From: a virus
Reading direction: 5' to 3' (one strand)
Length of the DNA stretch: 51,970 nt
IMG/VR virus record: IMGVR_UViG_3300010883_000045
Span: 1-51,970 of that record
Shown: positions 2,844 to 25,754 of the stretch, in pieces
Position numbering within the stretch: position 1 is the stretch's first letter
Layout: every line of letters begins with the position of its first letter
The notes under the pieces: generated by a model
The model's database searches: none
What the model was told of the DNA's origin: nothing
What the model saw: the letters and a program-made list of their open reading frames with translations, nothing else
Program-made: the position numbers and the translations under genes

Positions 2844-3213
2844 CGAGCAGCCTGCATATATGGGGAATGACTTCAGTAAATGTGATTGCGCCAGGTGCCC
2901 GATCGTGGAGCAGGTTTGTCTTGACTAGGTCGAAGTAATCTCGATCGTAGATCCACTTCACTGCTTGCTGCCTGACCAGCGGCCACTTGCCGGCGCTCGT
3001 TAGCTCCTCAGAATTGCACTGCCAGCAAACAGCCAGCCAGGTACACCGTTGAGGCAGGGCTACCTCTCGGAAACTGCCGCGGAGCATTTCGTGTGGGGTC
3101 AGCGGACCTCCCTGGCCGCAGGTCCAGCAGAATTCGGCGTCACTGAGGAATTGCTGGCGTGCGGGCCGGCAATTTTCCATTAGTACCGCTCGCTTGAGGC
3201 TTTGGTATTTCAT
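2827..3213 (-). CDS. HNH-like zinc-binding protein
   Basis: 128 residues if the ATG at 3213 is used. It has only a weak purine-rich site, and an alternative ATG lies at 3180. It overlaps the DnaB-N-like gene by about 70 bases in another frame and the DUF1064 gene by 17. Two CxxC pairs (FCWTCGQ and VCWQCNSEEL) flank a His-Glu (TPHEM), as in degenerate HNH/NinG-like phage nucleases. The C-terminal half (PLVRQQAVKWIYDRDYFDLV) is helical. Its recombination-module neighbours favour a nuclease or DNA-repair role. The catalytic His-His/Asn set is not clearly complete, so it may be structural zinc only. Confidence 0.6.
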   Translation of the reverse strand: MKYQSLKRAVLMENCRPARQQFLSDAEFCWTCGQGGPLTPHEMLRGSFREVALPQRCTWLAVCWQCNSEELTSAGKWPLVRQQAVKWIYDRDYFDLVKTNLLHDRAPGAITFTEVIPHICRLLDDSIQ

Positions 3214-4833: not shown

Positions 4834-5100
4834 TCAAAATTCAAAAGGGTCAGGCTCAGTAGCTGCCGGCTGCGGGGCGTTCTGGGGTGCTTCAATGCCC
4901 TGCGGTGGAGCAAACTTCATTTCGTGCGTGGGTTGTTTCTCCGTCTCTCTCTTGGTATTCAGGAAGACCATGATATGCGAGCCGGCCGGGATTGTGACAT
5001 CGTCCTTCGTCGATCCTCCCAGGTACTGGCCGTTCCCCCCGCTCTTGCTCCATAAACCAGTAACTCGTACCAATGCGCTTGTTCGTCGTTCTTCAGACAT
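4834..5100 (-). CDS. Small single-domain protein (88 aa), DUF736-like in pattern
   Basis: The start ATG shares a base with the helicase stop (TGATG), with GGAG upstream. The core 'VRVTGLWSKSGGNGQYLGGS...VTIPAGSHIMVFLNTK' has the G-L-W...G...Y-x-G layout of small beta-barrel phage proteins such as DUF736. It is followed by a polar linker and an acidic tail ending DPFEF. An acidic C-terminal tip ending in Phe is also seen in ssDNA-binding proteins, and the position beside the helicase, ParB and ERF genes is consistent with a replication accessory role. Neither idea is proven. Confidence 0.65.
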   Translation of the reverse strand: MSEERRTSALVRVTGLWSKSGGNGQYLGGSTKDDVTIPAGSHIMVFLNTKRETEKQPTHEMKFAPPQGIEAPQNAPQPAATEPDPFEF

Positions 5101-7670: not shown

Positions 7671-8696
7671 CTATGGCTGGTCGCCTCCAACCAACCCACG
7701 GTAGGTGCTTCCCAGCAGCGAATCGACCTCGCTGGTTGATTCCTCGGTCCAATTCCCCCGTCCGATTTGGTGCTCCACGTAGGCCGAGCATTGCTTGAGG
7801 AATTCGGCGTAGAGTACAGGGTCCGTTTTGACTCGCTTCCCGGTTTCTACCTGCTGCACCATCTTCAAGAGATCGGCCGGCGTGGCTTTCATGTATATCT
7901 GGATTTTCAGTTGCTCCATGGTAGGGGGAGCCTGGGCTGCGGTCGCAACCTCATCCTTCGACTCTTTTGCAGAGTCCAGCACGGCCTCGCCTGGAGCTGC
8001 AACTGGCCCGGCCGGTGGCCAAGTGTCGCGGGCGTTCTCGACTGGCCGCTTGTCGTCATTCAAGCCATTTGCCCCAAAATTGAAAGACATATCTGAGTCG
8101 CTAAACGTGTGGTTTGTGTCTACGCGGGCATCCCCCCGGGAATGGTTTGCCGTGTTGTTAGGCTTCTCGGCTGGCCATTTAACTGCCTCATGGTCTGGCA
8201 CGCTATCAACCTCGGGATCGTCCTCGGAGTAGAGGTTGAACAACCCCTGCAAGGCGTACTTCCGAGCACCCGTGAACGCCTTGAAATAGCCTTTGTCGCC
8301 CTTGTCATACGCCTCGCCTAATTGGATATGCTCTACCGTTTCGCCTGTGGCGACATGGAGCAACTTCGTGCAGATTGTCACCCGCCAGCCGTTTGGCATC
8401 TTGGCCGAGCTTGTAGAGAAGTTCTCTACTTCTGTTTGCTCGGCCGTGATAAGCAGGCCATGCTTCTGGCAGGGGGGCTCGATCGCTGATAGGTAATCGC
8501 CGAGCGTTGAGTAATCATAGTTGTCAAATTTATTATGGCCCGATTTGCCTATGTGCCCCATTTCCTTGCGGGCAGCCAATCTCGCCTCGTTGATCGACGC
8601 ATGCGGTTCTTCCATTGGGTTCTCCTGTAGTTGGGCTTCCTCGTCATCGAGAATTGCGGCCGTAGAATCGGCAGATATTGACGCGGTATCAGGCAC
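7671..8696 (-). CDS. erf: ERF-family single-strand annealing recombinase
   Basis: I place the start at GTG 8696 (341 aa), which has AAGGAG six bases upstream. A longer frame to 8789 has no site. A third candidate ATG at 8615 also has AGGAG at good spacing and would omit 27 further residues. The ERF core begins at HASINEARLAARKEMG and contains the diagnostic HNKFDNYDYSTLGDYLSAIE, the GLLIT strand and the GDKGYFKAFTGARKYALQGL signature, followed by 'SEDDPEVDS'. The C-terminal half is disordered, acidic and variable, as is usual. ERF proteins bind ssDNA and anneal complementary strands during phage recombination and genome circularisation. It is the first gene of the leftward early module and has its own promoter candidate upstream. 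Confidence 0.88.
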   Translation of the reverse strand: MPDTASISADSTAAILDDEEAQLQENPMEEPHASINEARLAARKEMGHIGKSGHNKFDNYDYSTLGDYLSAIEPPCQKHGLLITAEQTEVENFSTSSAKMPNGWRVTICTKLLHVATGETVEHIQLGEAYDKGDKGYFKAFTGARKYALQGLFNLYSEDDPEVDSVPDHEAVKWPAEKPNNTANHSRGDARVDTNHTFSDSDMSFNFGANGLNDDKRPVENARDTWPPAGPVAAPGEAVLDSAKESKDEVATAAQAPPTMEQLKIQIYMKATPADLLKMVQQVETGKRVKTDPVLYAEFLKQCSAYVEHQIGRGNWTEESTSEVDSLLGSTYRGLVGGDQP

Positions 8697-8760
8697 ATTT
8701 GGCTCCTTGTCCTTGTCCGTGAGCGAAAGTCTCCCTGCCGCTCCGTTTGTCACATCGAGC

Positions 8761-8789
8761 AATTTACTCGCTCTCGAAAAACAATGCAA
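8761..8789 (-). promoter_or_regulatory. Candidate sigma70-type promoter for the ERF-led operon
   Basis: On the minus strand TTGCAT (8789-8784) and TAAATT (8766-8761) are separated by 17 bases, each matching four of six consensus bases. It sits in the about 106-bp gap between the giant gene's stop and the ERF start, which is where a promoter for the early leftward module would be expected. The evidence is sequence similarity and position only. Confidence 0.35.
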
Positions 8790-8802: not shown

Positions 8803-11800
8803 TTATTCTCGCCATCTCACCTTGGTACGATCCACCCGATCGCGGTAGTCCTGGTGGGTTTCGCCCTTACGGGGTGATAGCTTCCTCTTGAAGCTACCCT
8901 TCCTGAGAGCGTCGCGCAGTGGTGCATAACCAGACAATTCGGTGATGAAGCGTGATAGCTGATTATGCCAGGCAATGAAATCTTCGACGCGGCCGGCGTA
9001 TTCGCTGTCTGACTCTCCCTTGATCTTACGGGGGTGCCCCATCTCCGACGCAACGACTTTCGAAACATCATAGAGCACATCCAAGAACTTGTCGGAGTCC
9101 TCCCGCTTCGCTCGCTGGCGAAGATCAGGCCACAGTTCCCTGAATATGTCCGACATTGCCCTCCAGTCATCCTGGGAACGGTCGGTGTGGTCTGACTCAT
9201 GCTGGAAGAATTTTTTGGCTAGCAGTAAGGCAGACTCGTTTCTCTCCTTATCTGTAGCGATCATGTAAACATTGAAAGCCTCCTGAGTAGTCAGCCGCTC
9301 GAAGTTCACAGTGAACCAGGGCCGGCTCGCTTCCCGTCGCATACGCTTCATCGCATCTTCGTTGAACGTATCGTACAGGTTTAGGTCAACGAGCGAACGG
9401 TGCTCCCGCATACGTTTGATTGCTTCCCGGCGCAACTCGCTTCGTTCCTTGGCCTGTTTGTCACGGCTGCCTTCCATTCGTCGCTCGGCGAGCATCTGTC
9501 CCATCAGGATTTGGGCAGACGACTTACTGATGTAGCCAGGTGCTACGCCAATGCCAAATGTAGACAGGACCGCGGCTTTGACCGGAGCTACATTGTCCTT
9601 TCTATATTCTTCGTACTGTTTAACGGAGAACGGCAGCAACGCCTTGCCTACGTGCTCGGCCGTGTCCTTGAATTGCTGCACCCAGGGATCGTCTTCGTTC
9701 TTGATTTCGTTGCCGAAGTAATCTTGGTTGTGGGCCAATTCCGACATAATGCCGATTAGCGGGTGCGTCTTATGCTGAAGGGTAGTCAAGGGCCGTGTTA
9801 AGTAGGAAATGTAATCCCGAGCGTAATCAGGCAGGCTAAGTCGCGCTGGCGATCCGTCTGGACGTGTGCCGCCTGTCTTGGGGAAGTAATAATCCTTGAG
9901 TTCTTCGGGTGGCACGCCCGTCATCACGTATTGGAGGATCGCACCGACCGCACCGATATAGAACACACTGCCAAAAAACTCGCCCATACGAAGCGAGACC
10001 ACCGCATCGCCTTCGGCTAGTCGCTGCTTAGTAGTGGCCAGGTCGTAAACCGGCCCGATGACATACTCCCGAATGAAACCAAGGTTCCAGCCTACGGCTC
10101 GGGTGCTAATCATTGCCAGGTCTTTGAGGTAACGATTCCAGAACAGATTGTCGTAGGGGAGCTGCCCGAGGCGGTTGTCTACGCTATCTGTCGCCTTGGT
10201 CAACATTCGCTTCAGTGTTGCGTCCGACAGATCCTGAGTACCCAACCGCTCCATCTCGTCCTCGACGAGCATTTGGAACATGCCGGCCTTGAGAGCGGGC
10301 ACGTAATGCTGCATCATCGGCTTCATTCCAGCTTCCAGGGCAGCCGAGATCGTCGTGAAGGGCAATCGTACAGCACTGCCGACAGTCTTCGCCAGAGACG
10401 GATCGTTCAGCATTGTTTCTAATAGTTTGCTGATCCGATCTGGCGATTGGTTGAAGTAGAACGCATCGGCCTCTGCGTGGAACCCGCCTACCGCCGCGGC
10501 CTCCACCATCTTGGCTATGTATTTGTCAGTGATCTGCTCCGCTCGCTTGTGGAAGCCCTTCTTCCGAAGCTCGGCACCAGAGGTTGCCAGCTTGAGCATA
10601 GGGCCGACCACCGTGGCAGCTAGCGCCAGTTGTCCAATGCCCTTGACCATCATGCGAGGCTGGAAAGTCGATAGGTTCCGCAAAGCCTGCCCGGTGTACG
10701 TCGCCGGCGTGGAGATCGTGGCAAAGGTCGCATGGAACAGCGAGAACAACTGGGCCTGGTTCACCGAGTTACCGACAGCCCGGGTGGCCCCATAGGCACC
10801 CCGCACCCCTGCGTGGGGGTGTTGCCAGAAGCCAGGACTTAGATGATTGTTCAAAAGCCGAGCGGCATTCTCGGGCATGTAATAGTGCCCCAGCGTTGTC
10901 ACGCCTGGCACGGGAACCTGCCCAGTGCTGGTGCCACGGGTCAGGCTCGGCCGGATCCCCAGTAAAGGCTTTAGCTCGGAGTGAGCGTTAAGGAACTTCT
11001 CGTAGAGCGTGTGAACGTCCGGTGCTATTTTCTTCATCAGATCGGGGGCGTGGATGTACGCCTCCAACAGCACCGCTTCCTTCTCGGCTTCTTTCAGGAT
11101 ATAGCGACGGCGACTGTCTGTTACGTCTTTCTCGGCGTCTAGCCTGGCGAGTGCCAGTGCCCGCCACTGCTCTTTGATCTTCTTGCGGTTGTCGATGCTC
11201 GATCGTTCTTCGCGGAATTCTTGCTGGCCCGCTCGCGGCCCCTTCGTTATTGTGCGGTAGCTGCCTTCTTTCTGCTGCAGCATCCATTCGAACAGGTTGT
11301 ACTTGTAACCGAGCTGATGCCCCAGTTCGTGAATGTAGGTGCCTTCGGTGGAGCCGAACTTGGTTGTGATCTTTCCATCTCTGCTCGCCTGCCCCAGTGC
11401 CCCGCCTGGCAGTTTCATTAGCCGTTCGTGGCTTACTCCAATAGACGTAGCGAACGAATCTAGTTGCTCAATCAACAGGGCGTCGAAGTGCTCGTCAACT
11501 TCCACCCACGGCTTGGCGAAGATCGTAAACAGGGGGTCGTTTATCTTAACCCAGTCGGCTGGCGGCTTAGATTTCTCATACACAAACTGCGTCAGGCCGG
11601 CTCTCCCATGCCCTTCGATGATCGCATTGGCTTCCAGGAACTTCAGTATCTCGCCGGCCTTGCTGTAGACCATGTCTACCGGGTTCCAGCTGACGGGCTC
11701 TAGCTGGCGTTGCTCCACGCCTTCGCGGAATGTCGGGATGGTACGCTTCTTCAAGAATGCCTTGCTCCCAGACAACGGAGCCCTCGCCTGCCCCATAAAC

Positions 11801-14800
11801 TCTCGGGCCTTGTCTTGTTGCCCCAGTTTCCAGGCGTGAGGGAAGTAATACTCGTCAAACTTCGACAGGTAGCCGAGCTTCTGCACCCGTCCACGTAGGT
11901 CGTCAAGCATCTCACGGAAAACGACAGCCAACTCTCGTAGTTTCTTGTCCTTGAGCTTGGCCACTTCCTTGGGGCCGTGCTCCACCGCGTCGATGAAGTC
12001 CACAACCTGTTTACGGTTGAGCTTCCGCATGTATCTACGGTACTTCCTTAGCTCATGGAACAGGGCCGTCTTGGCCTGCGACGTGCGGGCAAATGCCTCG
12101 CGGTTAATCTGCTCAGCGGTCTCGCTGATCTTCGAGACCTTGGGCGGATTGATGGCCTTGAGCACTTCCTGCTGGACAGCTCGCAAGCGGCCGACATCCT
12201 CTTCGATCGGAATGACCTTGCCCATCACGCCTGGCGTCGAGGAGGGAGCGGAGAAGTCCTTGGGTTTCTTGCGAGCCGCACCGACAGGGCCGTAACCCTT
12301 CATGGGTATGCGGTCTGCCTCGCCGGCTGCTTCAAGCGATTCCATCGCTCCTGCCAGATCAGGCTCGCGGCGCGCCCCCTTTGCCTTGCGGCCGGGCCGT
12401 ATCGGCGGGCGGGGAGTGGGTGTGGTCGCGGCGGGCTGGTCCTGGTCGGTCGATCGCCTGGACCCGCGCCGTACTCCGATGATCGCATTGTCGTTGATGA
12501 GCTGCTCAAGCACCCGCACGCCGCTCTCGTCGGTAGGAACGAAATGCCTAACGCGATAGTCTATCCGCCGGCGGAACGCACCCTTGGTTTCCAGAGGGTC
12601 AAAGTCCTCGGCCGTGGGGCCAACGATCTCGATGCTAGTCTCCCCTTCGGCCCGGACTCGCTTGATTTGCCAGTCGTTTGCCAGGGTAATAGATCCGCCA
12701 TCGTCAAAGATTAGAGTAAACGCTTCCTGCGGGGTGAGCTGCGGAGCATCGACCGCAACGCCAAGCCGCGTCAGGACTTCGTAGACATCGTCTTCGTCAA
12801 TATGCCGGCCCAGGATGTGCTCGCCGTCGTCGGTAAGCAGTCGTCTTACCTGCGGGTGAGTCGCCGGCAATTTGTTCCAGATAGGCAATAGCACGCCCGA
12901 GATAATGTGCATCTCCTCATGCTGCATCGCTGGCGTGTTGGCTACTTGCTCTCCCCAATTCTTCCTGGCGACTTTCTCGTCAACGCGGGTCCAGTTATCA
13001 CCTTCCAGCTTGGCGGCAGTGCTGTAGGAATAGGATGTGGGATACAGCAGTTTAAGCCGCTCGGTCATGTTGCCATGCCGGTCCTGGTCGGTAACGCCCG
13101 TGCCGCGAATAATCGCAACCCTGCCCGTCTTGGCACTGCGGACATATCCGTTGTTGCGATCGGCAGTCGCTTCGAGCATTTCTTCCCAGCCGACCGGCTT
13201 GGTTTTCTTGCCAACAGACATAACAACATGCTTTGTCTCCGAGCCAGTCTCATGCGTGTAAACGACCTCTTCGCTAACTTTCGTGATGGAGTCCGCTTTG
13301 ACGGTCTCCATGCCCTGGTCTAGCGTGCCGCCCTCAATCGCTGCTTCCGTGTGAGCAATCACACGCTGGTCGAACATCTCATAGAACTCGTTTTGCTGCT
13401 CCACTCCAAGAGTCAGCACGCGGTTGAGGAATTGCTGAATCGTGGGCCACTGGGCCTTGACCGTGCCGTCCTCGTTGAGCAGCTTGAGGCCCATTCTTGT
13501 GTTCAGGAACTCCATGTCGTAAGCACCCGTCTCTCCACGCAGCATGGCATGGAAGAGGCTCGCCAGTGCGGCCCGAGCTTCAGTGCTTTCCAGGTTATCG
13601 GCAGCGGAGAATACACCCGATTCGCCGGCCTTTCGTTCGCCTTTCGTGAGAGCACCCAACTGACCAAGGCGACGGGCAATCGTAGAGATAAACCGCTTCT
13701 GCCCTTTGAGATTCGTTTGAATTAAGAAGAACTTGGGGGCCTGGGCCTGGTTGGATCTGTGCGAGCGTCCCAATCCTTGAATAGCAACGTCTGCCCGCCA
13801 GCCAGCTTGCAGCAGGTAGTGGTGCCGTTTCTGTTGGTTCTTCCTCGACAGATCCGCATGGTAACTAGCACCTGTGCCGCCGGCTTCCGAGAAGATCAGG
13901 ATACGCTTCTCGCCATCCATGAAATCATTGGCGTCTGACTCTAAGTTTGCCGGCTTTCTCTTCTGCCGGATCAGCTTGCCATCTTTATCGTGGACAAGCC
14001 GTTCCGAGCGTCCGGTGATCTCTGCGACGTTATCTGCACCAAAGTGCTCGATAATCATATCCAACGCACCCTGACCTGCAGATTCCATGGCACCGCTAAG
14101 CTCATCCAAGAGCCTTTCCTTCGCCGCCACGGCTTCCGGGTTGTGGACAGGCTTCCCCTGCGAATCAACGACCGGCCGGGTGCGTTCGTTTCCGTTAGCG
14201 TCGATGTACGTTTCGTACTGCTGAGTGGGGAAGGATCTTTCCAGGTAATCCATAAGGATGTACCCTGGGCTCAAGTCCAACGCTTCAAGGTCCTCTTCGG
14301 TCTCCTCCCCGGCCTGCCGACCAATGGCACGGGTCAGTGCTGCTTCGTTGGTGTTTGTTAGCTGAACAATAGACGAACGGCCTGCAGCCATGTCCGCTTC
14401 TATAGCCTGAATCACTACAGGAGTCTGCATGGAAGTGATAACAGAGTTGCCGAACCTGAGCTGTGCCGCACGGAATTGACTGCGGGCCTGGGAAGCAGCT
14501 CGGCCTGTCTGGCCAGTGGTCCCGAGTGCTTCTTCGATGTTCGTGTAAACAACCTGCCAGGCGTCAGCCATCTTTGAGTAAGCCGTGGTTTGGCTAGGCG
14601 TCAACTTGTGCTCTAGTCGCTCGTACTCGACCTTTCCTTTTTTCGTGCCATCGTTGAATGAAATGTTACGGGCCAGGTACATGCCCATTGCTTTCATATC
14701 GCCGGCCGTTTGCTCCATGGCACCCACGCCCCCGGCAGCAATGGCAGCAATAAACTTATCCCTAGTTTCAAACGCGGTGTCCTCACCCCACAAGCCGAGC

Positions 14801-17800
14801 CGCGTAGCATACGCCAGGTTGGATACTTCCGTCGCACTGGTGGCAGACAGGTAAACGATACGGGCCAGTGGCAAGCGATCCTGCAAGTCGATCCCCGCTA
14901 ACGCCTGCGACGAGGCTTCCTTGCGACTCAGGCCAGTGCCCGACGTTATGCCAGACTGCATCTGGTGGGCTTCGTCAAACACGATCACACCGTCGTAATC
15001 CTCGCCGAACCACTCAACAATCTGGTCAACACGGCTGAGGACATTGCCGGCCGCTATCGCTTGCGTGGAAGCAGTCGTTCGCAAAGTACTGTAAGTTGTG
15101 AACAGGATCCCGTCGCTCTTGTCGATAGAAGCACCACTTTTAGTTGACTTGTTATGCGGGAACACTTCTTTGTGGTGCCCGCCGACCTTCTCCCATTCTT
15201 CCTTGGCTGGCTTGAGGAGCTTGTCATTCTTCGACACCCACACCGCCTTGGTGCGTCCTCGATTAAAGTTATCCTGGATGATGCCGGCGATCTCGCGGGC
15301 TTTGCCTACACCCGTGCCATCGCCAATCATAAACCCACGTCGTTTACCATCAGGCAACATCTGCTCATGGGCCTGGCCGGCGTTAACAACCGCTTCAAGC
15401 TGGATATCGGAGATGCCGACATGAACACCCCCTTCCGTCACATATCCCTTGACGGTTTCCTGGTTGATCCGTGGTGCGTAGGTGGGCTTCGGGGAAGAGA
15501 TCGCCGCCATAGCAGCGGATTCCACCAAAGAAGCGGGGTGCGTGGTAGAGCCTTCGACTATTACGGACGGTTGATAAGGCTGGTAAGTCGAGTCGTCAAG
15601 TATGCCAACTGTTGTCTTTTCAGCGGCCGAGACTTTGAGCGGCTTTACGTCCAACTTGCCTCGGGTGGACGTAGGCTCGGTATCTTCTCCTGCAGGTTTT
15701 CGTACAGGTTCTCTACCAGAAGTGTCACCAGTCGTTGATGGCTGACCCCTGCGTCCCGGGCGACGTCCGCCTGGGCGTCGGACAGATGTTCCTGATCCCC
15801 CAGGTGAACCAGTGCCCGTTGTGCCTCCTGGTCGCCCAGTAGCGGGAGTTGTTCCGCTAGCTGTCCCAGAAACTGGCTCGCTGGGTACGGCACCAGGTTC
15901 GGCCGGTTGGCTAGTGCCCACGACACCAGTTGGAGTGCCGGGTCTACTTGCGGTTCCCTCGCTACCAGGAACTTCTTCAGTGCCTTTGTCGCTGATGCGT
16001 TCAGATCGTGCATTGCGTACTCCCTCTAAGAGATCGACGGCTTCCGCCAGGGTAGCGACAGAGCCCGTGACCCTATCTACATTATCGCCGGGTTTCTTAT
16101 CAATGACAAGCAAACGGGTGGGAAACGTGGTTCCGTAGCCTTTATAGACATCTCGGCCGATCTCAACGTCGGCCACAACAGCGTAGGGCAGGTCTGCCAG
16201 CCAGTTGTCAAAGCCCTTTCCACGGCCGTGCAAGCCAGCCCCGACGATCGCGGACACTCGGCCGCCATCCGGCAATAGCTTCAAGACCTGGTCGATATGC
16301 TTCCGATCGGTGCCCGTTTGGATTTTGTTGCCCATCCTGCGTCCCGCCCTGCTGAACGGGGGATTCATTATTGCATCGGTTATCGGCGGCATCTGGTCGG
16401 GCAGTATTGCCGCGATCTGTTCAGCGTCCTCAGTAAACACTTTCTCAGGCGACAGAGCTGATAGCGGGCCGGCCCGGGCCTTGTCGATCTCGTTCGTGTA
16501 AACATCGGCACCCGAGTTGATTGCATGAACAGCCAGGCCGCCCATGCCAGCGCTAGGTTCCAAGACAACGCTGTTCTCGGACAGGTTCAAAGCCCATGCC
16601 GCGAGGAAACCGTAAGCCGGCGGCGTGGAGAATTGCTGCAGCGTATCCTTCTCGCCGGTGCGAGTTTTGTGCTTTGGTAGTCGCTTGCCCAATTTCTCCA
16701 GAATGGCAATGCTTTCCTTGGCCTGCTCGGCCGTGCCAGTAGGCTGTATAGCAAGCGTGTTACGAATGTACTTGTTGACGCCTAGCTCTAGTGCGTCGTA
16801 GGCTTCGCTATCTCCGTACTTCCCTTCCGACCGCGTGCCGCCGAACATCTCGTTGGCGGCTTGGAAGAAATCAGGCGATCCAATGGCTTCGTCGTTCTCG
16901 TTAAGTTTCCCTTCCACCCATGAAGCGAGCATGAGCTGGGAAGTCACGGTCGGGTTTGCTTTGTCAAGAACGCCATCGCCAACGATGCCGCCGGCAAATG
17001 TCCAGCCTTGCTCTAGTTCACTGCGAATCTTCCGAGTCATGGTCACGCCAAACTCGTTGATTACCGTTTCAAGGAATTCAGCAAAGGTCAGCACGCCGGC
17101 CTTGATGGACTTAGCTACCGACCTGGCGACTGCCGAGACGATCTTAGGATTGATCGGAGTAGAGCCGAAGAAGCCTTCTTCTCCCAGGGCGTCCCGCAAG
17201 TCCTGCAAGCTATCCTTCGCTTCGCCGCGTGCCTTCTGAGCGGCATCGCCTAGCTTGGTCTTGCCGCCAGGCTTGATCGGTTCGTCTTTGACATTGGCAC
17301 CGAACTGGAAGTCGGTATCCCCTTCAGTCTCCTCGTATGGCTCATCTTTAAGTCCAGCACGCGCTTCTTCCATTACATCGGGTAAGAAGTCATCCGCCTT
17401 CTTGAGCTTGAACTGAGCGACGCCGCCCTTCAACACTTCCCACAGGCCATTCTCTATGTCACCATCGCCTAGCCTATCTGCTAGTCCGTAGATTGTTGGG
17501 GCTATGCTGGGGTCATCTCTCAACGGTGCTACCTGAACATCGAAGTTTTTGACCCCCGCCGCATCGCCCTCCGATCGACGCGCCCTAGCCACCAACTTAT
17601 CGGAATTTCTGCCGAAAACTGTGGTGAACTGGTCGCGGTCTTCCTGCTGCTTTACGTTATGCTCTGCAGCTCTCCTCTCAGCTTCATTGAACACACCCCC
17701 CACAGAGCCTAAGTCGGCGTCTAGCTTGTCTTCGAGCAGCTTAACGTCAGAGTCGTCCAGGGTGCCGTTACGTTTGAGCGTAGCAATACGCTTCTTGAGG

Positions 17801-20800
17801 CTGGCAGCTTTCTGCTCGGGCGTCTGGGTCTTCTTGCGATTGCCGGGCCGCTTGACAGGCTTCTTTTCTTCTGGCAGCTTGCCGGCTTCTTCCTGTGCCG
17901 CGAACGCTTCTTCAATCTTCGCGGCTATCTCATCTTCGGTAAGCTCGGGGGCAAGGAGTATCTGCCGGCCCTTCTTCGTCCACTTCGCGGGATCCAGGTA
18001 ATCACGGAACAAGAACGCCCGCCGCGGCGTTTTTTTTTCCGAGACTCCCCAAAATTCCTCCCCGATATCGGCATTGACTTGCTCGATTGCTTTCTCGACC
18101 TGCCCTTCGCTAGCGTCGTACTTGTCTTGCAGCATGCGAGCCAATTCAGCTTCGGGGAGGATGTAGGCACGATTGGGCTTGCCTCTTTTGGTAGTCCCTT
18201 CCGCCCCATCCAGTAAGGCAATGACGCCCTTCTGGTGCAGGACATGCACAGCCTCATATACCGCACGCGGGTGATCCGCGAGGAGATCATCTAAGTCTTG
18301 GTATGTAATCGGGCCTTCCCTTAGCCGGTCCAGCGTTTGGGGGATGCCCGCCTTTAGCTCTGCTAATTCGCGGGCAAGGCGATCCCAAGAGCCTATGCCC
18401 TTCACCCCGTAGTCCTCCATCGCCCTCTTGGCAACCTCGAACTTCGTTTTTTTCTTTGACCCGATCTTGGGAAGCTCCGCCGCCTTCATTATCTTGCGGA
18501 ACCACTTCGGACCTGTGGCCCCGACTTTGCCGAGCTTCTTCTTGCCCCGCCGCCTTTCACTGATCTCCTTTGTTTCGGCATCTCCCGCAATCCCCCAATG
18601 CGTGATGCCTTCCTCCTCAACGCGGGCCATCAAGGACTGCACCTTCGGCACGCCGCCGCCAAGCAAGTGAATCGGGTGTTTGACCCCATGCTTGCTGCCC
18701 ATGTCTTTCAACAGTTGGACAACTTCATCTTCGTTCCAAGCGGCAGCGTTAAACGGTATCCCTAATGTGTATTCCTCGTTTAGTTCCTCGGGGTAGTAGT
18801 CGGTCAGGTCGGCCAGCTGGGTGGAAATCGTCTGCTCCCCACCCCTGCCCTTCTGCACGGGCATGATGATGGTTACGCCGCTATCAAAGAACTTCTCAAA
18901 CTCCTTGCGGAACGGACCCCGCAACAACTTTTCGTTGGCCTCTGGATCCCCGATGACGTCGGGAGCGACCAGGGAAACATTATGCCGCTTGTCACGATCA
19001 ACGTGGTTGACCAGTTCGCCATAGCGGAATAATGCCTTAGCCCAGTCAACTTGCTGTTTCTTCTTGAAGGCTGAGTAGGATCCCGAATCAATGAACACCT
19101 TGCCGCCCGAGTTGGCGTAGTTCACTAGCTCTGTGCGGACTGTTTCGGACAAACCGAGCCATACTGAAACGCCAACAGGCTTGCCTTCGGCAATGTGTGC
19201 TCGTATCTCCGTAGGTGATCTGGAAAGGCCACTGGCGTAGCTGACGCCTTCCGGTTCTTCGATTGTTTCCTTGACGGGCCGGAACTCGCCAGTAGACGTG
19301 TCATACACGCCGACCACGTACTTGTTCGGTATAGAGCCAGACCGTGTAGGACTCAAGGAATGTGTTTTATGCTCGGCAAATGGCACATCCATAAGGAGGA
19401 CAAACGGGCCAAAGTCTCCCCTTGTAAATGCCCCAGTTTTGCCCCTGGCGATTACGTCAGCGACTTCTTCGGGCGTCTGGAACGCATCGGTCGAGCCGCC
19501 TACATCGCCACGTTTGCCGTAGTTGAAATCCTGCCCGCCTTCGACCACATTAGATACAGTGTTCGGATTCCCAAAGAAGTGCGTCAGCCGCACGCTCCCC
19601 TCAGTGATCGGGGGTAGCTTAGCCGCGATCTCCTTGGCATCGCCGGTCTGGAATCTCTTGGGCTTATCAATCGCCTCAACGACCGCTTCCTTGAGCGTCA
19701 TCCCCTTACCGTCGTTGGCGGCCTTGAGATACTGCCCGTAATACTGCGGCCCCCATCGCGTTTCCTCATGCCGAACAATTTCATCGACAGCACCGGCCGC
19801 ATCCATGTCGCCCGTCCAGCGGCTTACTACGTCGGCAATGTGCCGCTTTCCATCGGCAGGGTTCTTGTCTACGCCGCGTTTCGTCCGCAGCTCACCCTTG
19901 TCAGCACGCATCTTGTCGCGGAGTGCGTCGAGGCTACTGGCCCTTATCTCTGCGTCGTCGTAGCCGGCGTCGTTGAGATACTTCCGCTCTTCTTTGGAAA
20001 GGACTCGGTTGTAAGGCTGTATCTCTGGCACGGTGGGCTTGGCTTGCGGGACCTTGCCGGGCCGCTTCTGCGGGGCTTTCTTTACATCGTAAGCTAACGG
20101 GAAAACAAGAGTACCATCCTCAAGTCGTGCGGTGAGATTGTTTGGTCTTTCTCCGACCGACTCTTCGATGGTCGCTGTAGATCCGCCCGGGAGTATGACG
20201 CGATCGCCAACCTTGTACGTGCCCGCTTCAATAATTTCCCTGGATCGCTGCCGGCGTAGTCCAGGTGATAAGATTTCTTCGATCCCCCCTGCCTCGTCCT
20301 CTTCTTCAACCTGCTCGCCACGCGGATCATCCTCGGCCTGCAGCTCAATGTCGCCTAGCTGCTCTTCGGTGAACGTAGCTGGCTGTATCTCTGGCACGGT
20401 GGGCTTGGCTTGCGGGACCTTGCCGGGCCGCTTCCCCGGCTTGCTGGGATGAACGCGGGCCTTCACTTCGGATGCGGGAAGGTCGAGGGCTTTGGCGACG
20501 TTGTCAATGACGCCTTCGTTGATCTCACGGCCCTGAACGTCCATCTCATTAAAAATGACATCGACAGCACGACGCTTTGCTTTTGTGGTCAACGCATCCA
20601 GGGGAACTCGTTGCTTAATGACCCCTTCAGCATCCTTCTCCACTTTGATGCCAAGATCATCTAGCTTGGATTCAGAAAACACCAGGGGAGCCATGCCGCC
20701 CTGGTTTTGCAGGCGTACCCTCGCAGCTTGGCCAGGGCCACGATTCACGAAGATTCCGACATCGTCTACGTTGTATGCGGGGTCAAGCCGGCCATCACCG

Positions 20801-23562
20801 TCAACGGCTACCGCAACGAGTGCATCGCCGGCCATGACATGGCCAAAGCCTTCGTCTCCAAAGTCGTCCGCTTTCCAACCGTTTATGTCAAAGAACTGCC
20901 TGCCCTCTGCGGCGGCAGCCTGCTTGTGTGCCTGGTCTTTCTCTAGCCCCTTTCGCCGCCCGCTTATTTTCGCCAAGAGAAGTTTTTTTTCTTCTTCGTC
21001 TATCTCCTGATCCTGACGAATAAACTTCTCGGCATTGTCGAGCTGATCTATGGCGTCATCGACGGGCAGGGTGTTGATGTCATTCTCGACGATCCTTGCC
21101 GCTTCCTGCCACTTCCCCGGCTTGATGGGAATTTTAACCCGACCTTTTCCAGTTATCCCCGATTTCTCGCTAGGTGTGACAGTGTCAGTGACAGGTGCCG
21201 GCGGAGCAGCTTCGGTAATTATCTGGTCCTTCGGTATTTTCAGCAGCTCATTGCCGCCGCGGCCCTTCACGCGGATAGAGACCGATTCGCCCTCATCACG
21301 CCGCACCTTACCAGTGACCGCTTTGCCCGTAGAGGGATGCGTGTATTGCACCGTCTCGCCAGTCTCGTAGGTAATGTCGAACGGAGCTTGCGAGGCATCG
21401 GCCGCCGCGTCGGATCGCTGCTGTGCTGCTACTGCCTCTTGCTCACTGGCCCGGCCGGCCAGGTTCTCGCGTAATGAAGGACCTTTTGGCATCGGTAGTT
21501 CTTCAGGCGACAACGGCCGTGTCGGCGGTTGAGAACCAGGAACAAGTCGTTCCGATACATAAGTCTTCCAATCCTCTGCTGTTTGGGGGCGAACATGCTG
21601 CAGATCCTCCGCGAATTCCTCGGGAGTAAGTGGCCTTTCGTTTGCCGGGTTGCTTAGCGTTTCCCACGCTTCCTTGACATCGTCAGGCAGGGCATATGGC
21701 TGATCCTTAATCATCTGCAGGACGTCGTCTGCATACTCCTGTGCTTCCACATCTTCTGGAGAAGCAACGTCACCTGGTTCGACGCCGACATCTTTGAGTA
21801 CGTTCGTGGCGATCTTCTCAGCGGCGACCTGGTCGGTAGCTGATGGCTTGGGATAGCCAGGGCCAGGTAGGTCGGGTGCAGACGGATCGCTCGGCGGGCC
21901 AGGCGGGCCAGGCGGGCCAGGCGGAGCATCAGCGGGCTGATCGCCGACAAGTTTTCTTACTATAGCGGCACCCGTTCTGGCGATAGCTGGAGCAGCAAAG
22001 CCACCGAACTCCGTGGAAATCTGATAGAGCCCCCTCTTCATGCGTTCCAGATCGCCCGAGAGAACATCCCCCGTGGCACCGTAATCATCTTCGATCCCTA
22101 TGACGCCTCGTAGGATTTCGCCAAAGCGCTCTTCGCCAACTTCCTCAATCAGGCCATCGAAACCGCCTACCTTAAAGACATCGTCGATATGCTGGACCGT
22201 CGCACCATCCAGCTTGAGCGCTTTCGTAACTGCATCCTTGACTTTCTTAGCTGCCCCCTTCGCACCGAGTTTCTTGCCAATGATCCCCAGCACATCGCCG
22301 ATCGACTCGCCAGACATTTCAGAAAAGGCTTCAACGTAGGTATCGCCGAAACCCTTAACGAGAGCTGCAGCAAAATCCTCGCCTTTTTCGCGGGTCTCGA
22401 TGTAGGCACGCCCGCCAGTGATGCCATCCTCTGTTTCCGTGGGAGGCGTAGAATCCCAACGATCAACTTTTAGGATTTCAGGATCTAGCTTGTCGCCCAT
22501 TCTCTGCACAGTGCTTTCAACAACCATGTCAGGCATGAACACTGCACGCGGGGCAGCGTTGATCGCAGCTCCGCCGAGCTTGCTTACTGCCCCAGCAGCT
22601 TTGAACCCTGCTCGACCGAGCTTATCGAAGCCCCGCTTCTTCATGTGCTTGGCCATCATCTTCTTGATGCCGACCTTGAGTGCCGCCTGGGCACCAGCCT
22701 TCGTGCCGAGACCAACAGCAGAAGTCATGCCGCCCGATGCCGCAAACCCTGCCATGAAACCCGGGATCTCGGCAGCTAAGTTAAAGACGATCTGCCCCCA
22801 CCCGCGTTCGTCGATGTTCTTTTGCTGCTGCGTCAGTCCCATGACGACGTTAAAGTCACGCTCGGTTGCATAGCCGGCGTCGATACGCCTCAGTGAGTTA
22901 GCAAGCTCCTCGTAGTTGTTCAGGACCATGGCCGTTCCCACTAACGGAACCTTGCCCAACGTCCATTCAACCCAATCTTCGTCGAAGTCGCCCTTCTCAG
23001 CTCGCTTTTGAGCACTGGTGATCCACTTGTCGTAGTTGACCGCCCGCTCGTCGTCCATTTGCAGGCGAGTCCGCTCATGCCGGTCCCAGATGTTCTTCTC
23101 AACTGCCCACCGGCTATACTCGGGCGTGCTTTCCTGGGGCGGGGCGATTGGGAACGGAGCTGCATCTGGGTCAAGCGGAGCGGCTTCTGGCACCGGCGTA
23201 AGCAGCTTTCGTTCCCGGGCCGGCTCGGGCTCGGGCGGTGCTTCTGGCGGAGGCGGTGCATAGCCGGCCTCGGGAGGAACGTAATCGTCCGGCCGTGGCG
23301 GCGGCGGAGGAGGCGGGGCCTGCGAGTCTGCGAGTGCCAGCATCTCTTCAGGCGTAGTCATTTGCGGGGGCGGCACTTCTTCTGGCTGGGCCGCCTCATC
23401 AGGTAGCGGTGCCTGCAACGCTGGTGGCTCCACCGTTGGCGGAGCGACAACCGGAGCGTACTGCTGCATCAGTTCGTCGAACGTCAGCGTGCCGTCGTCG
23501 GATTCTCCGGGCGGCGGACTGTCGAGCGTAGCCATCAGGTCATCGAAGCTGAGCACACTCAT
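8803..23562 (-). CDS. Giant polyvalent virion protein: ART-like, TGT/DpdA-like, DNA methyltransferase, SBNO helicase, zincin
   Basis: 4,919 residues, more than twice P1 DarB. The ATG overlaps the preceding virion gene (ATGA). Order: two FD[D/E]LM motifs and Pro-rich tail (1-150); Gly/Ala helical region (about 190-540); collagen-like PGPPGPPGPP (about 550); SH3-like modules; ART-like domain with VRLTHFFGN (about 1324); TGT/DpdA-like barrel with IDSGSYSAF (about 1491), MPVQKGR, LLGGGVP and HWGIAGD (about 1655); winged helix; N6-adenine methyltransferase with LEPSAGMGG (2334) and NPPF (2400); Gly/Thr/Pro linker; Strawberry-notch-type helicase with GDGTGVGK (2747), DEAH (2863) and GLGRSHRSNQ (about 3263), plus its LLPIW C-terminal domain; zincin HELGH (4078-4082); hydrophobic helices (about 4265-4550). 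DarB-type proteins are packaged and ejected to protect incoming DNA. That role here is inferred from homology and from its place at the end of the virion operon. Confidence 0.85.
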   Translation of the reverse strand: MSVLSFDDLMATLDSPPPGESDDGTLTFDELMQQYAPVVAPPTVEPPALQAPLPDEAAQPEEVPPPQMTTPEEMLALADSQAPPPPPPPRPDDYVPPEAGYAPPPPEAPPEPEPARERKLLTPVPEAAPLDPDAAPFPIAPPQESTPEYSRWAVEKNIWDRHERTRLQMDDERAVNYDKWITSAQKRAEKGDFDEDWVEWTLGKVPLVGTAMVLNNYEELANSLRRIDAGYATERDFNVVMGLTQQQKNIDERGWGQIVFNLAAEIPGFMAGFAASGGMTSAVGLGTKAGAQAALKVGIKKMMAKHMKKRGFDKLGRAGFKAAGAVSKLGGAAINAAPRAVFMPDMVVESTVQRMGDKLDPEILKVDRWDSTPPTETEDGITGGRAYIETREKGEDFAAALVKGFGDTYVEAFSEMSGESIGDVLGIIGKKLGAKGAAKKVKDAVTKALKLDGATVQHIDDVFKVGGFDGLIEEVGEERFGEILRGVIGIEDDYGATGDVLSGDLERMKRGLYQISTEFGGFAAPAIARTGAAIVRKLVGDQPADAPPGPPGPPGPPSDPSAPDLPGPGYPKPSATDQVAAEKIATNVLKDVGVEPGDVASPEDVEAQEYADDVLQMIKDQPYALPDDVKEAWETLSNPANERPLTPEEFAEDLQHVRPQTAEDWKTYVSERLVPGSQPPTRPLSPEELPMPKGPSLRENLAGRASEQEAVAAQQRSDAAADASQAPFDITYETGETVQYTHPSTGKAVTGKVRRDEGESVSIRVKGRGGNELLKIPKDQIITEAAPPAPVTDTVTPSEKSGITGKGRVKIPIKPGKWQEAARIVENDINTLPVDDAIDQLDNAEKFIRQDQEIDEEEKKLLLAKISGRRKGLEKDQAHKQAAAAEGRQFFDINGWKADDFGDEGFGHVMAGDALVAVAVDGDGRLDPAYNVDDVGIFVNRGPGQAARVRLQNQGGMAPLVFSESKLDDLGIKVEKDAEGVIKQRVPLDALTTKAKRRAVDVIFNEMDVQGREINEGVIDNVAKALDLPASEVKARVHPSKPGKRPGKVPQAKPTVPEIQPATFTEEQLGDIELQAEDDPRGEQVEEEDEAGGIEEILSPGLRRQRSREIIEAGTYKVGDRVILPGGSTATIEESVGERPNNLTARLEDGTLVFPLAYDVKKAPQKRPGKVPQAKPTVPEIQPYNRVLSKEERKYLNDAGYDDAEIRASSLDALRDKMRADKGELRTKRGVDKNPADGKRHIADVVSRWTGDMDAAGAVDEIVRHEETRWGPQYYGQYLKAANDGKGMTLKEAVVEAIDKPKRFQTGDAKEIAAKLPPITEGSVRLTHFFGNPNTVSNVVEGGQDFNYGKRGDVGGSTDAFQTPEEVADVIARGKTGAFTRGDFGPFVLLMDVPFAEHKTHSLSPTRSGSIPNKYVVGVYDTSTGEFRPVKETIEEPEGVSYASGLSRSPTEIRAHIAEGKPVGVSVWLGLSETVRTELVNYANSGGKVFIDSGSYSAFKKKQQVDWAKALFRYGELVNHVDRDKRHNVSLVAPDVIGDPEANEKLLRGPFRKEFEKFFDSGVTIIMPVQKGRGGEQTISTQLADLTDYYPEELNEEYTLGIPFNAAAWNEDEVVQLLKDMGSKHGVKHPIHLLGGGVPKVQSLMARVEEEGITHWGIAGDAETKEISERRRGKKKLGKVGATGPKWFRKIMKAAELPKIGSKKKTKFEVAKRAMEDYGVKGIGSWDRLARELAELKAGIPQTLDRLREGPITYQDLDDLLADHPRAVYEAVHVLHQKGVIALLDGAEGTTKRGKPNRAYILPEAELARMLQDKYDASEGQVEKAIEQVNADIGEEFWGVSEKKTPRRAFLFRDYLDPAKWTKKGRQILLAPELTEDEIAAKIEEAFAAQEEAGKLPEEKKPVKRPGNRKKTQTPEQKAASLKKRIATLKRNGTLDDSDVKLLEDKLDADLGSVGGVFNEAERRAAEHNVKQQEDRDQFTTVFGRNSDKLVARARRSEGDAAGVKNFDVQVAPLRDDPSIAPTIYGLADRLGDGDIENGLWEVLKGGVAQFKLKKADDFLPDVMEEARAGLKDEPYEETEGDTDFQFGANVKDEPIKPGGKTKLGDAAQKARGEAKDSLQDLRDALGEEGFFGSTPINPKIVSAVARSVAKSIKAGVLTFAEFLETVINEFGVTMTRKIRSELEQGWTFAGGIVGDGVLDKANPTVTSQLMLASWVEGKLNENDEAIGSPDFFQAANEMFGGTRSEGKYGDSEAYDALELGVNKYIRNTLAIQPTGTAEQAKESIAILEKLGKRLPKHKTRTGEKDTLQQFSTPPAYGFLAAWALNLSENSVVLEPSAGMGGLAVHAINSGADVYTNEIDKARAGPLSALSPEKVFTEDAEQIAAILPDQMPPITDAIMNPPFSRAGRRMGNKIQTGTDRKHIDQVLKLLPDGGRVSAIVGAGLHGRGKGFDNWLADLPYAVVADVEIGRDVYKGYGTTFPTRLLVIDKKPGDNVDRVTGSVATLAEAVDLLEGVRNARSERISDKGTEEVPGSEGTASRPGTPTGVVGTSQPAEPGAVPSEPVSGTASGTTPATGRPGGTTGTGSPGGSGTSVRRPGGRRPGRRGQPSTTGDTSGREPVRKPAGEDTEPTSTRGKLDVKPLKVSAAEKTTVGILDDSTYQPYQPSVIVEGSTTHPASLVESAAMAAISSPKPTYAPRINQETVKGYVTEGGVHVGISDIQLEAVVNAGQAHEQMLPDGKRRGFMIGDGTGVGKAREIAGIIQDNFNRGRTKAVWVSKNDKLLKPAKEEWEKVGGHHKEVFPHNKSTKSGASIDKSDGILFTTYSTLRTTASTQAIAAGNVLSRVDQIVEWFGEDYDGVIVFDEAHQMQSGITSGTGLSRKEASSQALAGIDLQDRLPLARIVYLSATSATEVSNLAYATRLGLWGEDTAFETRDKFIAAIAAGGVGAMEQTAGDMKAMGMYLARNISFNDGTKKGKVEYERLEHKLTPSQTTAYSKMADAWQVVYTNIEEALGTTGQTGRAASQARSQFRAAQLRFGNSVITSMQTPVVIQAIEADMAAGRSSIVQLTNTNEAALTRAIGRQAGEETEEDLEALDLSPGYILMDYLERSFPTQQYETYIDANGNERTRPVVDSQGKPVHNPEAVAAKERLLDELSGAMESAGQGALDMIIEHFGADNVAEITGRSERLVHDKDGKLIRQKRKPANLESDANDFMDGEKRILIFSEAGGTGASYHADLSRKNQQKRHHYLLQAGWRADVAIQGLGRSHRSNQAQAPKFFLIQTNLKGQKRFISTIARRLGQLGALTKGERKAGESGVFSAADNLESTEARAALASLFHAMLRGETGAYDMEFLNTRMGLKLLNEDGTVKAQWPTIQQFLNRVLTLGVEQQNEFYEMFDQRVIAHTEAAIEGGTLDQGMETVKADSITKVSEEVVYTHETGSETKHVVMSVGKKTKPVGWEEMLEATADRNNGYVRSAKTGRVAIIRGTGVTDQDRHGNMTERLKLLYPTSYSYSTAAKLEGDNWTRVDEKVARKNWGEQVANTPAMQHEEMHIISGVLLPIWNKLPATHPQVRRLLTDDGEHILGRHIDEDDVYEVLTRLGVAVDAPQLTPQEAFTLIFDDGGSITLANDWQIKRVRAEGETSIEIVGPTAEDFDPLETKGAFRRRIDYRVRHFVPTDESGVRVLEQLINDNAIIGVRRGSRRSTDQDQPAATTPTPRPPIRPGRKAKGARREPDLAGAMESLEAAGEADRIPMKGYGPVGAARKKPKDFSAPSSTPGVMGKVIPIEEDVGRLRAVQQEVLKAINPPKVSKISETAEQINREAFARTSQAKTALFHELRKYRRYMRKLNRKQVVDFIDAVEHGPKEVAKLKDKKLRELAVVFREMLDDLRGRVQKLGYLSKFDEYYFPHAWKLGQQDKAREFMGQARAPLSGSKAFLKKRTIPTFREGVEQRQLEPVSWNPVDMVYSKAGEILKFLEANAIIEGHGRAGLTQFVYEKSKPPADWVKINDPLFTIFAKPWVEVDEHFDALLIEQLDSFATSIGVSHERLMKLPGGALGQASRDGKITTKFGSTEGTYIHELGHQLGYKYNLFEWMLQQKEGSYRTITKGPRAGQQEFREERSSIDNRKKIKEQWRALALARLDAEKDVTDSRRRYILKEAEKEAVLLEAYIHAPDLMKKIAPDVHTLYEKFLNAHSELKPLLGIRPSLTRGTSTGQVPVPGVTTLGHYYMPENAARLLNNHLSPGFWQHPHAGVRGAYGATRAVGNSVNQAQLFSLFHATFATISTPATYTGQALRNLSTFQPRMMVKGIGQLALAATVVGPMLKLATSGAELRKKGFHKRAEQITDKYIAKMVEAAAVGGFHAEADAFYFNQSPDRISKLLETMLNDPSLAKTVGSAVRLPFTTISAALEAGMKPMMQHYVPALKAGMFQMLVEDEMERLGTQDLSDATLKRMLTKATDSVDNRLGQLPYDNLFWNRYLKDLAMISTRAVGWNLGFIREYVIGPVYDLATTKQRLAEGDAVVSLRMGEFFGSVFYIGAVGAILQYVMTGVPPEELKDYYFPKTGGTRPDGSPARLSLPDYARDYISYLTRPLTTLQHKTHPLIGIMSELAHNQDYFGNEIKNEDDPWVQQFKDTAEHVGKALLPFSVKQYEEYRKDNVAPVKAAVLSTFGIGVAPGYISKSSAQILMGQMLAERRMEGSRDKQAKERSELRREAIKRMREHRSLVDLNLYDTFNEDAMKRMRREASRPWFTVNFERLTTQEAFNVYMIATDKERNESALLLAKKFFQHESDHTDRSQDDWRAMSDIFRELWPDLRQRAKREDSDKFLDVLYDVSKVVASEMGHPRKIKGESDSEYAGRVEDFIAWHNQLSRFITELSGYAPLRDALRKGSFKRKLSPRKGETHQDYRDRVDRTKVRWRE
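20015..20434. repeat. Exact 54-bp direct repeat inside the giant gene (20015-20068 and 20381-20434)
   Basis: Both copies begin GGCTGTATCTCTGGCACGGT and are identical over 54 bases. On the coding strand each encodes KRPGKVPQAKPTVPEIQP, a Pro/Lys linker flanking an SH3-like module. The identity at DNA level points to recent duplication or gene conversion of the 366-bp unit, and recombination between copies would delete in frame (366 is divisible by 3). Confidence 0.9.
21171..21236. repeat. Copy A of a 66-bp dispersed direct repeat (within the giant gene)
   Basis: 64 of 66 bases match 49098-49163, same orientation. It starts TAGGTGTGACAGTGTCAGTG and contains the small palindrome TGACA-G-TGTCA. 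Here it encodes the segment PKDQIITEAAPPAPVTDTVT of the giant protein, a linker after an SH3-like module. Confidence 0.92.
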
Positions 23563-25754
23563 TTAGGGAATACCTCTTCGTATTTATTGGGGCCTTTAAC
23601 TAAAAACCACTTGCCATTGAAAAGGAAAGTCTGGCCCTTCTTTATTTTCAAAACATTGTCTGGCACGTACCAATCCTTATTGCTTGCGTAATCCATTTGC
23701 TCCCCTGTTTCTGGGTCGATTTCGGCAGCAACTGTACGGGTTTTGTCGCCGTCTTTTGTTCGGAGAAGCACGTTTTCGTATGTCGCCCCACTGTCTCCTA
23801 TGTATCGCTCGCCGGGCGGGATATCAGGCCAACGGCGGTCGCCTATCGGCCGTGCCTTCTTCATCCATGTTGGTACGCCGGCCTTCGCCGCTTGCTCCTT
23901 TGCCCTACGCTCAGCGGCGGAGGTCGGCACGGCTGTCGGCACTTCCGCCTGCTCCGGCACTTCCGCCTGCGGTTGTCGCCGGCCACGCTTCGGCCTTCCC
24001 CCGCGGGCACTGCCAGAAGGAGATGGCTTCGCCGCCTGCTCCGGCACCGCATCCTTCATCACCCACTCCCCATCGGCGTTCTTGACTGGTGGTCCGTTAG
24101 GCCAGGTCTGGCCGAACGGCCAGTTCGGCTGCGGCCAATCCTCTGGATCTAAAAGTGGATACATGACGGAGTTCATGTAGTCCGAGCCCTCTGTAGCCTG
24201 CGAGCGGGGGCCTTCTTCCGGCGGTGCCTGCTCTTGTTGTTCCCCGCGTTCTCTATTAAGTTGTTCCCAGATTACCGACTCATCAACGTCTCTCCACTCC
24301 GGCCGACTTTGCCTTAGTTCTTCCAGGTAAGAATACTTTTCTTGCTCCGCCTGGGTTGGCTGGGCGTTTGATGCCGGCCCTTCCGCTGGTATCGGCCCTT
24401 CCGCTGGTATCGGCGCTTGATCTTGCTGCATCTGCTCAACGGGCGTCGGCTGATTCTCTGGCAGCGGCTGCTGCGGAGGCTGAGATTGCTCCTGCTCCTG
24501 CTGCGGAGGTTGCTGCTGCGGAGGCTGCTGCTGCGGAGGTTGCTGCTGCGGAGGCTGCTGCTGCTGCGGAGGCTGCTCCTGCTTCTGCCGGGTGCGTTCG
24601 GCTTCCTCCTGTTGTTCGTATGCCGCCAGTTCCTCTTCATACCTGATAGTTTCCGCTACTATCTCCTCGACCGGGGGCTCATGGCCGGGGCCGTAAAGAT
24701 CACCGGCCATGAGCCTTGCCTTCGACGCTTTGTGCCGCTTGGCGGGCGTGGAGGCGGTCGCTATATCACGCGCATGCTCCCGGTCCAATCCTTCCTTGAG
24801 CACGGCGGCTTTGGCATCCAGGTCAGGGCGAGGGCGTGGCACAAATTCATAAGTGTAGCTGCCATCCTCCTCCTTCTTGCGATGGATCCAACCGTGGTCG
24901 CCGCTCGGCGTGTAACTCTCTGCAAATCCCGCATCCGGCGTTGGCGGCTGCTGGAGGTGTTGATTGGGGATGTCCTGCTCAGCTGCATTTTCCAGGACGG
25001 GACCCATGGCGTCGATGAATGGAGCGGGTCGCAACTCCGAGCCGTACTGGCCTTGGATCCCTTTGATCTCCGCGATCTTCGCATTGGCTTTCGCCTGGCC
25101 GGAAGGGCTCAGGTTCGGCAGGGATTCTTCCAGGTCAGCGATGACAGCGTCTGCGTTCGCGTTCATCTTGTCTGCGGCCTTGCTTTCCCAGTCGCGGTTC
25201 CATACCTCCTCCCCTCGGCGAAAGGCGCTTTCTTCCTGTCCCTCCACAATATCCGCGGCTTGGTCTTTTAGGTCAAAGTCATGCTGTCGGCCCTGCTCTA
25301 CTATTAAACGATTTTCTTGTATTTCCTGATTAATTTCCTCTTTGCGATCTGCACGGGCCTGCTGGGCCGCCTCTTGGGTTGCCTGTTGTTTGCTTTGGTT
25401 CTGCTGGAAGTCTAGGTCGAACTGTCGCTGCGACTCGCCCAGTCTTACATAGAACTCGTCCTGGCGTTGCAAATAGGTGAGATCGCGCCACCGCTGGGTT
25501 TCACCCAATGACGTATCGTACTGACGCTGCTTTTCGTCGAATGACGTATCATACTGGCGCTGGCCTTCACCAAACGTCATATCATACTGTCGCTGATTTT
25601 CGCCAAGCGTGCGGCCAAACTGGTCTACCTGGTGGGCGACCTTCTCCTCTTGTAAGTTAAACTTGTCTTGCTCCTGCAGGAAGCGACCACGGCCCGCTTC
25701 CTTAGCAACCAAGCCGGGGAGATTGTAGTTCTGGTAACTTACATTGATGGCCAT
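23559..25754 (-). CDS. Low-complexity virion protein with hendecad coiled-coil and PQ repeats
   Basis: 731 residues. Residues about 50-115 carry six near-11-residue repeats of the form G-E-x-Q-R-Q-Y-D-x-x-F (GENQRQYDMTF, GEGQRQYDTSF, DEKQRQYDTSL and others), a pattern of right-handed coiled coils seen in phage structural proteins. A long helical region follows, then a Pro/Gln tract (PPQQQ repeated about five times, near residues 420-450) and a second Pro/Glu-rich tract. The last about 90 residues look folded: WPDIPPGERYIGDSGATYEN, then beta strands ending FLFNGKWFLVKGPNKYEE. It is coupled to the giant protein. It is probably an internal virion or ejection-channel protein. There is no enzymatic motif, and the ribosome site is weak. 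Confidence 0.75.
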   Translation of the reverse strand: MAINVSYQNYNLPGLVAKEAGRGRFLQEQDKFNLQEEKVAHQVDQFGRTLGENQRQYDMTFGEGQRQYDTSFDEKQRQYDTSLGETQRWRDLTYLQRQDEFYVRLGESQRQFDLDFQQNQSKQQATQEAAQQARADRKEEINQEIQENRLIVEQGRQHDFDLKDQAADIVEGQEESAFRRGEEVWNRDWESKAADKMNANADAVIADLEESLPNLSPSGQAKANAKIAEIKGIQGQYGSELRPAPFIDAMGPVLENAAEQDIPNQHLQQPPTPDAGFAESYTPSGDHGWIHRKKEEDGSYTYEFVPRPRPDLDAKAAVLKEGLDREHARDIATASTPAKRHKASKARLMAGDLYGPGHEPPVEEIVAETIRYEEELAAYEQQEEAERTRQKQEQPPQQQQPPQQQPPQQQPPQQQPPQQEQEQSQPPQQPLPENQPTPVEQMQQDQAPIPAEGPIPAEGPASNAQPTQAEQEKYSYLEELRQSRPEWRDVDESVIWEQLNRERGEQQEQAPPEEGPRSQATEGSDYMNSVMYPLLDPEDWPQPNWPFGQTWPNGPPVKNADGEWVMKDAVPEQAAKPSPSGSARGGRPKRGRRQPQAEVPEQAEVPTAVPTSAAERRAKEQAAKAGVPTWMKKARPIGDRRWPDIPPGERYIGDSGATYENVLLRTKDGDKTRTVAAEIDPETGEQMDYASNKDWYVPDNVLKIKKGQTFLFNGKWFLVKGPNKYEEVFPK

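Follow-up and report, generated by a model that had tools for sequence, protein, structure and literature searches.

Base exchange with two aspartates is the established mechanism of TGT and DpdA enzymes. In phages, deazaguanine systems have been described from jumbo phages (PMC7824862). Polyvalent proteins, for which a methylase-helicase dyad has been described, are thought to be injected, and one of them, DarB of phage P1, is a head protein that shields phage DNA in cis (PMC5512222). A text search of this 2017 description found no mention of queuine, TGT or deazaguan, and a search of mainly open-access literature returned no report of a TGT/DpdA-like domain in polyvalent proteins. Here we describe a giant protein that carries such a domain.

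The stretch of DNA analyzed, hereafter the window, is the whole 51,970-base virus record IMGVR_UViG_3300010883_000045, which may be only a fragment of the virus genome. On its minus strand a single intact ORF of 4919 aa (8803..23562) encodes a giant polyvalent-type protein, in which Pfam recognized the Strawberry-notch helicase alone. This SNF2-type helicase spans aa ~2658-3690 (12493..15591, minus strand; AAA_34 4.2e-103, Helicase_C_4 2.8e-83) and is 42% identical to that of the related protein L048 over 1049 aa. An adenine-methylase-like region precedes it (aa ~2212-2562; 15877..16929, minus strand) with QFSTPP, EPSAG and NPPF motifs, sharing 38% identity with L048 and 27% with L019; the Pfam N6_Mtase model matches those two weakly. 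Further toward the C terminus, aa 4220-4784 (9211..10905, minus strand) are common to L019 (24% identity, 610 aa, 4.8e-38). A HELGH motif at aa 4078 (window 11317-11331) marks a possible zinc-peptidase domain, and 3′ of the giant gene lie genes for a GNAT acetyltransferase (4026-4529), a DEAD/ResIII helicase (5100-6725) and an ERF recombinase (7671-8789).

The order TGT/DpdA-like domain, methylase, helicase is found in four giant proteins: the window protein, L019, L046 and L048. Relatives also carry LPD1, ddrB-ParB, InPase and RadC, which mark polyvalent proteins, and the window protein itself combines several unrelated enzymatic domains (TGT-like, methylase-like and helicase) in one polypeptide. 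Like the P1 DarB-type proteins, it is a very large multidomain phage/plasmid protein with a methylase followed by an SNF2/Strawberry-notch helicase; unlike them, it has an extra TGT/DpdA-like domain.

A preliminary description of this DNA had placed a TGT/DpdA-like base-exchange domain at 18550-19242. Residues 1441-1671 map exactly to those positions and the six motifs it listed are all present and in order, but the barrel is slightly wider at both ends, at about aa 1438-1673 (18544..19251, minus strand) as judged from phrog_887, the family profile, the AlphaFold2 model and BLAST boundaries, the last being common to the window and other giant proteins. The region ahead of the domain (window ~19290-19900, aa ~1225-1425) appears ADP-ribosyltransferase-like by eye.

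The proposed homology to TGT/DpdA was borne out by a phrog_887 match, by reciprocal profiles and by hhalign against DpdA. In a PHROGs search, phrog_887 (‘queuine tRNA-ribosyltransferase’) matched the window domain at E 1.6e-8, and phrog_887 represents the DpdA family because its model scores phage 9g DpdA at 2.5e-100. A profile of the relatives built without the window found the giant ORF at 8.7e-54; run against 530 ORFs taken from controls and from records that bear DpdA, the same profile placed the DpdA ORFs on top, from 2.8e-6 downwards, with one further match in L056. In the opposite direction, a phage-DpdA profile searched against 400 window ORFs had the giant ORF as its sole match (E 3.9e-4). 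Aligning the family and DpdA alignments with hhalign gave a probability of 97 and an E of 1.2e-10 over 165 columns, which span DSG, PDV-GD and the HxLG/HGFG histidine. The family matched TGT weakly by hhalign, as did DpdA, the profiles being shallow, and this result was counted neither way.

Several other searches were negative. The window domain had no Pfam match up to E 10, including PF01702; NCBIfam and PADLOC gave nothing within the domain, with no match to the DpdA equivalog NF041059; single-protein searches of phage and viral collections returned no relatives; and PDB sequence searches, single and profile, returned nothing meaningful. Chance similarity is ruled out by the reciprocal family/DpdA profile matches. 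A mixed MAFFT alignment paired the second half of the domain with DpdA wrongly, as within-family and profile alignments pair HLLG with HGFG.

The barrel fold was reproduced by AlphaFold2. It modeled the window domain as a beta/alpha barrel (pLDDT 80, pTM 0.78) and stand-alone L028 as a better one (pLDDT 92, pTM 0.89), each with strands and helices alternating about eight times. In a Foldseek search of viral models, the window domain matched an ART-PolyVal-like protein best (1.1e-13, TM 0.72), and several of the following matches are labelled queuine tRNA-ribosyltransferases. Against the PDB, the 50 best matches of the window model were generic TIM barrels with no TGT among them, and the L028 model matched aldolases first, with TGT entries at ranks 5, 9, 20, 31 and 48 (4gi4 at 3.2e-5, 1q2r at 3.8e-5). 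Because the PDB matches are mainly generic TIM barrels or aldolases with TGT lower down, the modeled fold by itself indicates a TIM barrel; it is the sequence profiles that indicate DpdA. We conclude that residues ~1438-1673 are, on profile and model evidence, a TGT/DpdA-superfamily barrel.

Conservation was counted in an alignment of 24 family members, all of which share D1492 (DSG), P1534-D1535, H1632, L1634-G1635, D1661 and R1672. D1492 of FIDSG (19087..19089, minus strand) occupies the position of E. coli TGT D89, the general acid/base in known TGTs, and in hhalign the DSG motif pairs with DpdA and, weakly, with TGT. D1535 belongs to V-x-P-D-V (18958..18960, minus strand). H1632 of HLLGG (18667..18669, minus strand) is paired by hhalign with 9g DpdA H196, so the HGFG histidine of canonical DpdA is retained in 24/24. 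D1661 of AGDA (18580..18582, minus strand) lies at the position of the TGT/DpdA nucleophile Asp; it was paired with DpdA D215 and TGT D264 by motif order alone, being outside the hhalign-aligned stretch. The surrounding motif reads GDA-ETKE in the window versus S/T-x-DAN-x-LRS in stand-alone members, with the Asp kept. Both catalytic aspartates on which the preliminary TGT/DpdA reading depended, D1492 and (by motif order) D1661, are therefore kept. Q1570 of P-V-Q-K-G (18853..18855, minus strand) is Gln in 22 members and His in two, the residue of canonical DpdA being His. A CxCxxC zinc site is absent, with no Cys within the barrel or the next ~60 residues.

Relatives were gathered stepwise, by DpdA-alignment-guided scans of viral contigs and then by plasmid searches; the first guided search yielded two viral contigs, one coding a 5421-aa giant protein. 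Giant phage members comprise the window protein, L019, L045, L046, L048 and L017, which runs off its contig. Smaller multidomain members are L051, L053 and the plasmid L023, and stand-alone members, mostly 250-430 aa, come from Pseudomonas, Shewanella, Alteromonas and other plasmids and contigs. At least five further giant proteins can be aligned with the window domain, as can stand-alone proteins of plasmids; it matches 49 plasmids (best 9e-21, 34% identity across 85% of its length). Two weak matches, L055 and L054, were excluded from the family alignment. A family member on plasmid NZ_CP095924.1 (26503-27033) is labelled ‘phage tail protein’, probably in error, and L009 (Microbacterium phage Megan) has two DpdA-type genes side by side.

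In a maximum-likelihood tree, some of whose branches are long, a 100/100 branch separates ten DpdAs from 29 family members, and the window groups beside L017 and L019. Multidomain and stand-alone forms are intermixed, suggesting that the domain has probably switched between protein architectures. Canonical DpdA membership is excluded by Q1570, a His in DpdA, together with the separate 100/100 clade. The earlier term DpdA-like therefore holds for homology but not for canonical membership, as the clade is distinct and the histidine of the DpdA P-x-x-H-x-G motif (9g H141) is usually Gln. By tree and alignment, the family is a separate, so far undescribed clade, represented both within giant polyvalent proteins of phages or plasmids and as small plasmid proteins that stand alone.

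The window domain shares with phage DpdA (9g type, phrog_887) the homologous barrel, DSG-A/S, P/L-D-V-x-GD, the histidine equivalent to 9g H196 and the C-terminal nucleophile Asp, but it differs in clade and in the mostly Gln position, and in sitting inside a protein of ~4900 aa. With bacterial TGT (PF01702) it has in common the barrel fold and the two-aspartate layout, and the PDB search with the family model returned TGT entries; it differs in lacking a PF01702 match and the zinc cysteines and in its weak profile match.

Canonical DpdA also differs in gene context, since the DpdA locus L056 has FolE, QueC and QueE, whereas the window has no preQ0 genes near the domain. The earlier statement that preQ0 synthesis genes are missing from the window is supported for QueC and QueD: both were absent from it and from seven related virus records, with L056 as the QueC positive control, though all of these records may be fragments, so that the absence weighs little. 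A tgt gene is present in each of the eight bacterial genomes that carry stand-alone members, and equally in every control. On the Vibrio coralliilyticus plasmid p380 (L024:5434-7131), a DUF6884 domain (dpdC/YaaA-like) is fused to the DpdA-like domain; DUF6884 has been named as the dpdC domain (PMC11888242). This plasmid member provides a likeness to the dpdA-C genes of Dpd genomic islands, but no dpdB or restriction operon was seen and NF041059 did not match. A Mom-like gene adjoins the stand-alone member in L033 (9204-9989; matched to phage Mom-like proteins). Mom-like genes also occur near stand-alone members in L035 and L041 (8222-9160, minus strand), and in three marine genera a PAPS-reductase-like PP-loop protein, a possible partner, lies close to a member that stands alone or is fused (L022:2706-4343; L024:3330-4985; L038:11154-12848). 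Computation supports the homology, the fold, the retained active site, the order of the domains and the lack of QueC and QueD.

The giant gene lies in a co-directional minus-strand block that starts at the terminase gene, and the stop of the gene upstream (23559-25754) overlaps its ATG (ATGA overlap), as for a polyvalent protein coded with late virion genes. Annotation of the virion genes is poor in the window itself, and the arrangement is clearer in L046: a few genes separate its giant gene from an upstream gene for an internal virion protein (phrog_511, 3.8e-102). The gene position in both is compatible with a virion protein, and by analogy with known polyvalent proteins the giant protein probably travels in the virion and enters the cell together with the DNA.

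From gene position, domain partners and neighbors we infer catalytic activity, a DNA substrate, a preQ0 donor, and packaging with injection. We propose that an active TGT-superfamily domain, sister to phage DpdA, within a late-expressed polyvalent protein exchanges guanine for 7-deazaguanine on phage DNA, using host preQ0 and acting alongside methylation, a reading that we consider about evenly balanced between right and wrong. Selected guanines in phage DNA would be replaced by a 7-deazaguanine, namely preQ0 or a derivative from the host queuosine pathway. D1661 would attack C1′ and hold the sugar as guanine departs, and D1492 would handle the proton, after which the deazabase would be attached. 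The neighboring SNF2 ATPase would move the giant protein along DNA, and the adenine methylase would mark that DNA too, in the manner suggested for P1 DarB.

By guilt by association, DNA is favored as the target, given the DNA-acting fusion partners, the DUF6884 fusion and the Mom-like neighbor in L033. The domain might instead act on RNA, exchanging guanine in host or phage tRNA like canonical TGT and re-tuning translation after injection. The superfamily includes tRNA enzymes, Q1570 resembles by eye the TGT G-I-x-Q-G motif, and RNA-targeting domains also occur in polyvalent proteins (PMC5512222), but the profile similarity is to DpdA rather than TGT (with DpdA versus TGT equally weak for these shallow profiles), the CxCxxC zinc site is missing, and fusion partners and neighbors act on DNA; we regard an RNA target as unlikely.

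Being expressed late, the giant protein could also work as a late modification enzyme, with the same DNA chemistry, inside the producing cell and ahead of packaging. Because its gene overlaps and is co-directional with late virion genes, the protein would be made while DNA is packaged, and Mu Mom, by its annotation, provides a precedent for DNA modified just before packaging. Against this stands the view that polyvalent proteins are injected (PMC5512222). The L046 giant gene, moreover, is located where ejected internal virion proteins are coded, and action confined to the producing cell seems to us improbable. Base exchange is reversible in principle, and the domain might remove or reverse a modified guanine, by glycosylase activity or reverse exchange, as a counter-defense against Dpd-type DNA marking by the host. 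DUF6884 proteins are also tied to DNA lesions (PMC11701544), yet no sequence feature indicates hydrolysis and an exchanger's main active-site residues remain in place, making this role very unlikely. A catalytically dead domain serving only as a structural or DNA-binding module, to which the divergent C-terminal motif in the window, L017 and L019 might point, is scarcely credible, given that D1492, D1535, H1632 and D1661 do not vary among relatives that have diverged widely, every aligned giant-protein member included.

Guanine exchange on phage DNA could be placed at entry: a single virion-delivered polypeptide would translocate on the incoming DNA, methylate adenines and swap guanines for a host-made 7-deazaguanine, camouflaging the genome in the first minutes of infection, and the same domain family would serve conjugative plasmids. 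We offer this fuller scenario tentatively, as possible rather than probable. The preliminary description had called such an enzyme a new way of modifying DNA on entry; modification by an injected protein has a precedent in P1 DarB (PMC5512222), but a base-exchange domain in that setting is new. Lying just before the methylase and helicase, the domain hints that this phage masks its DNA by more than one means during cell entry. If true, polyvalent proteins would be extended from methylation to base exchange, a branch of DpdA would borrow host preQ0, and a set of ‘hypothetical’ genes carried by Pseudomonas and marine plasmids would be explained. It would also tie 7-deazaguanine camouflage to plasmid and phage entry, in a form that is directly testable.
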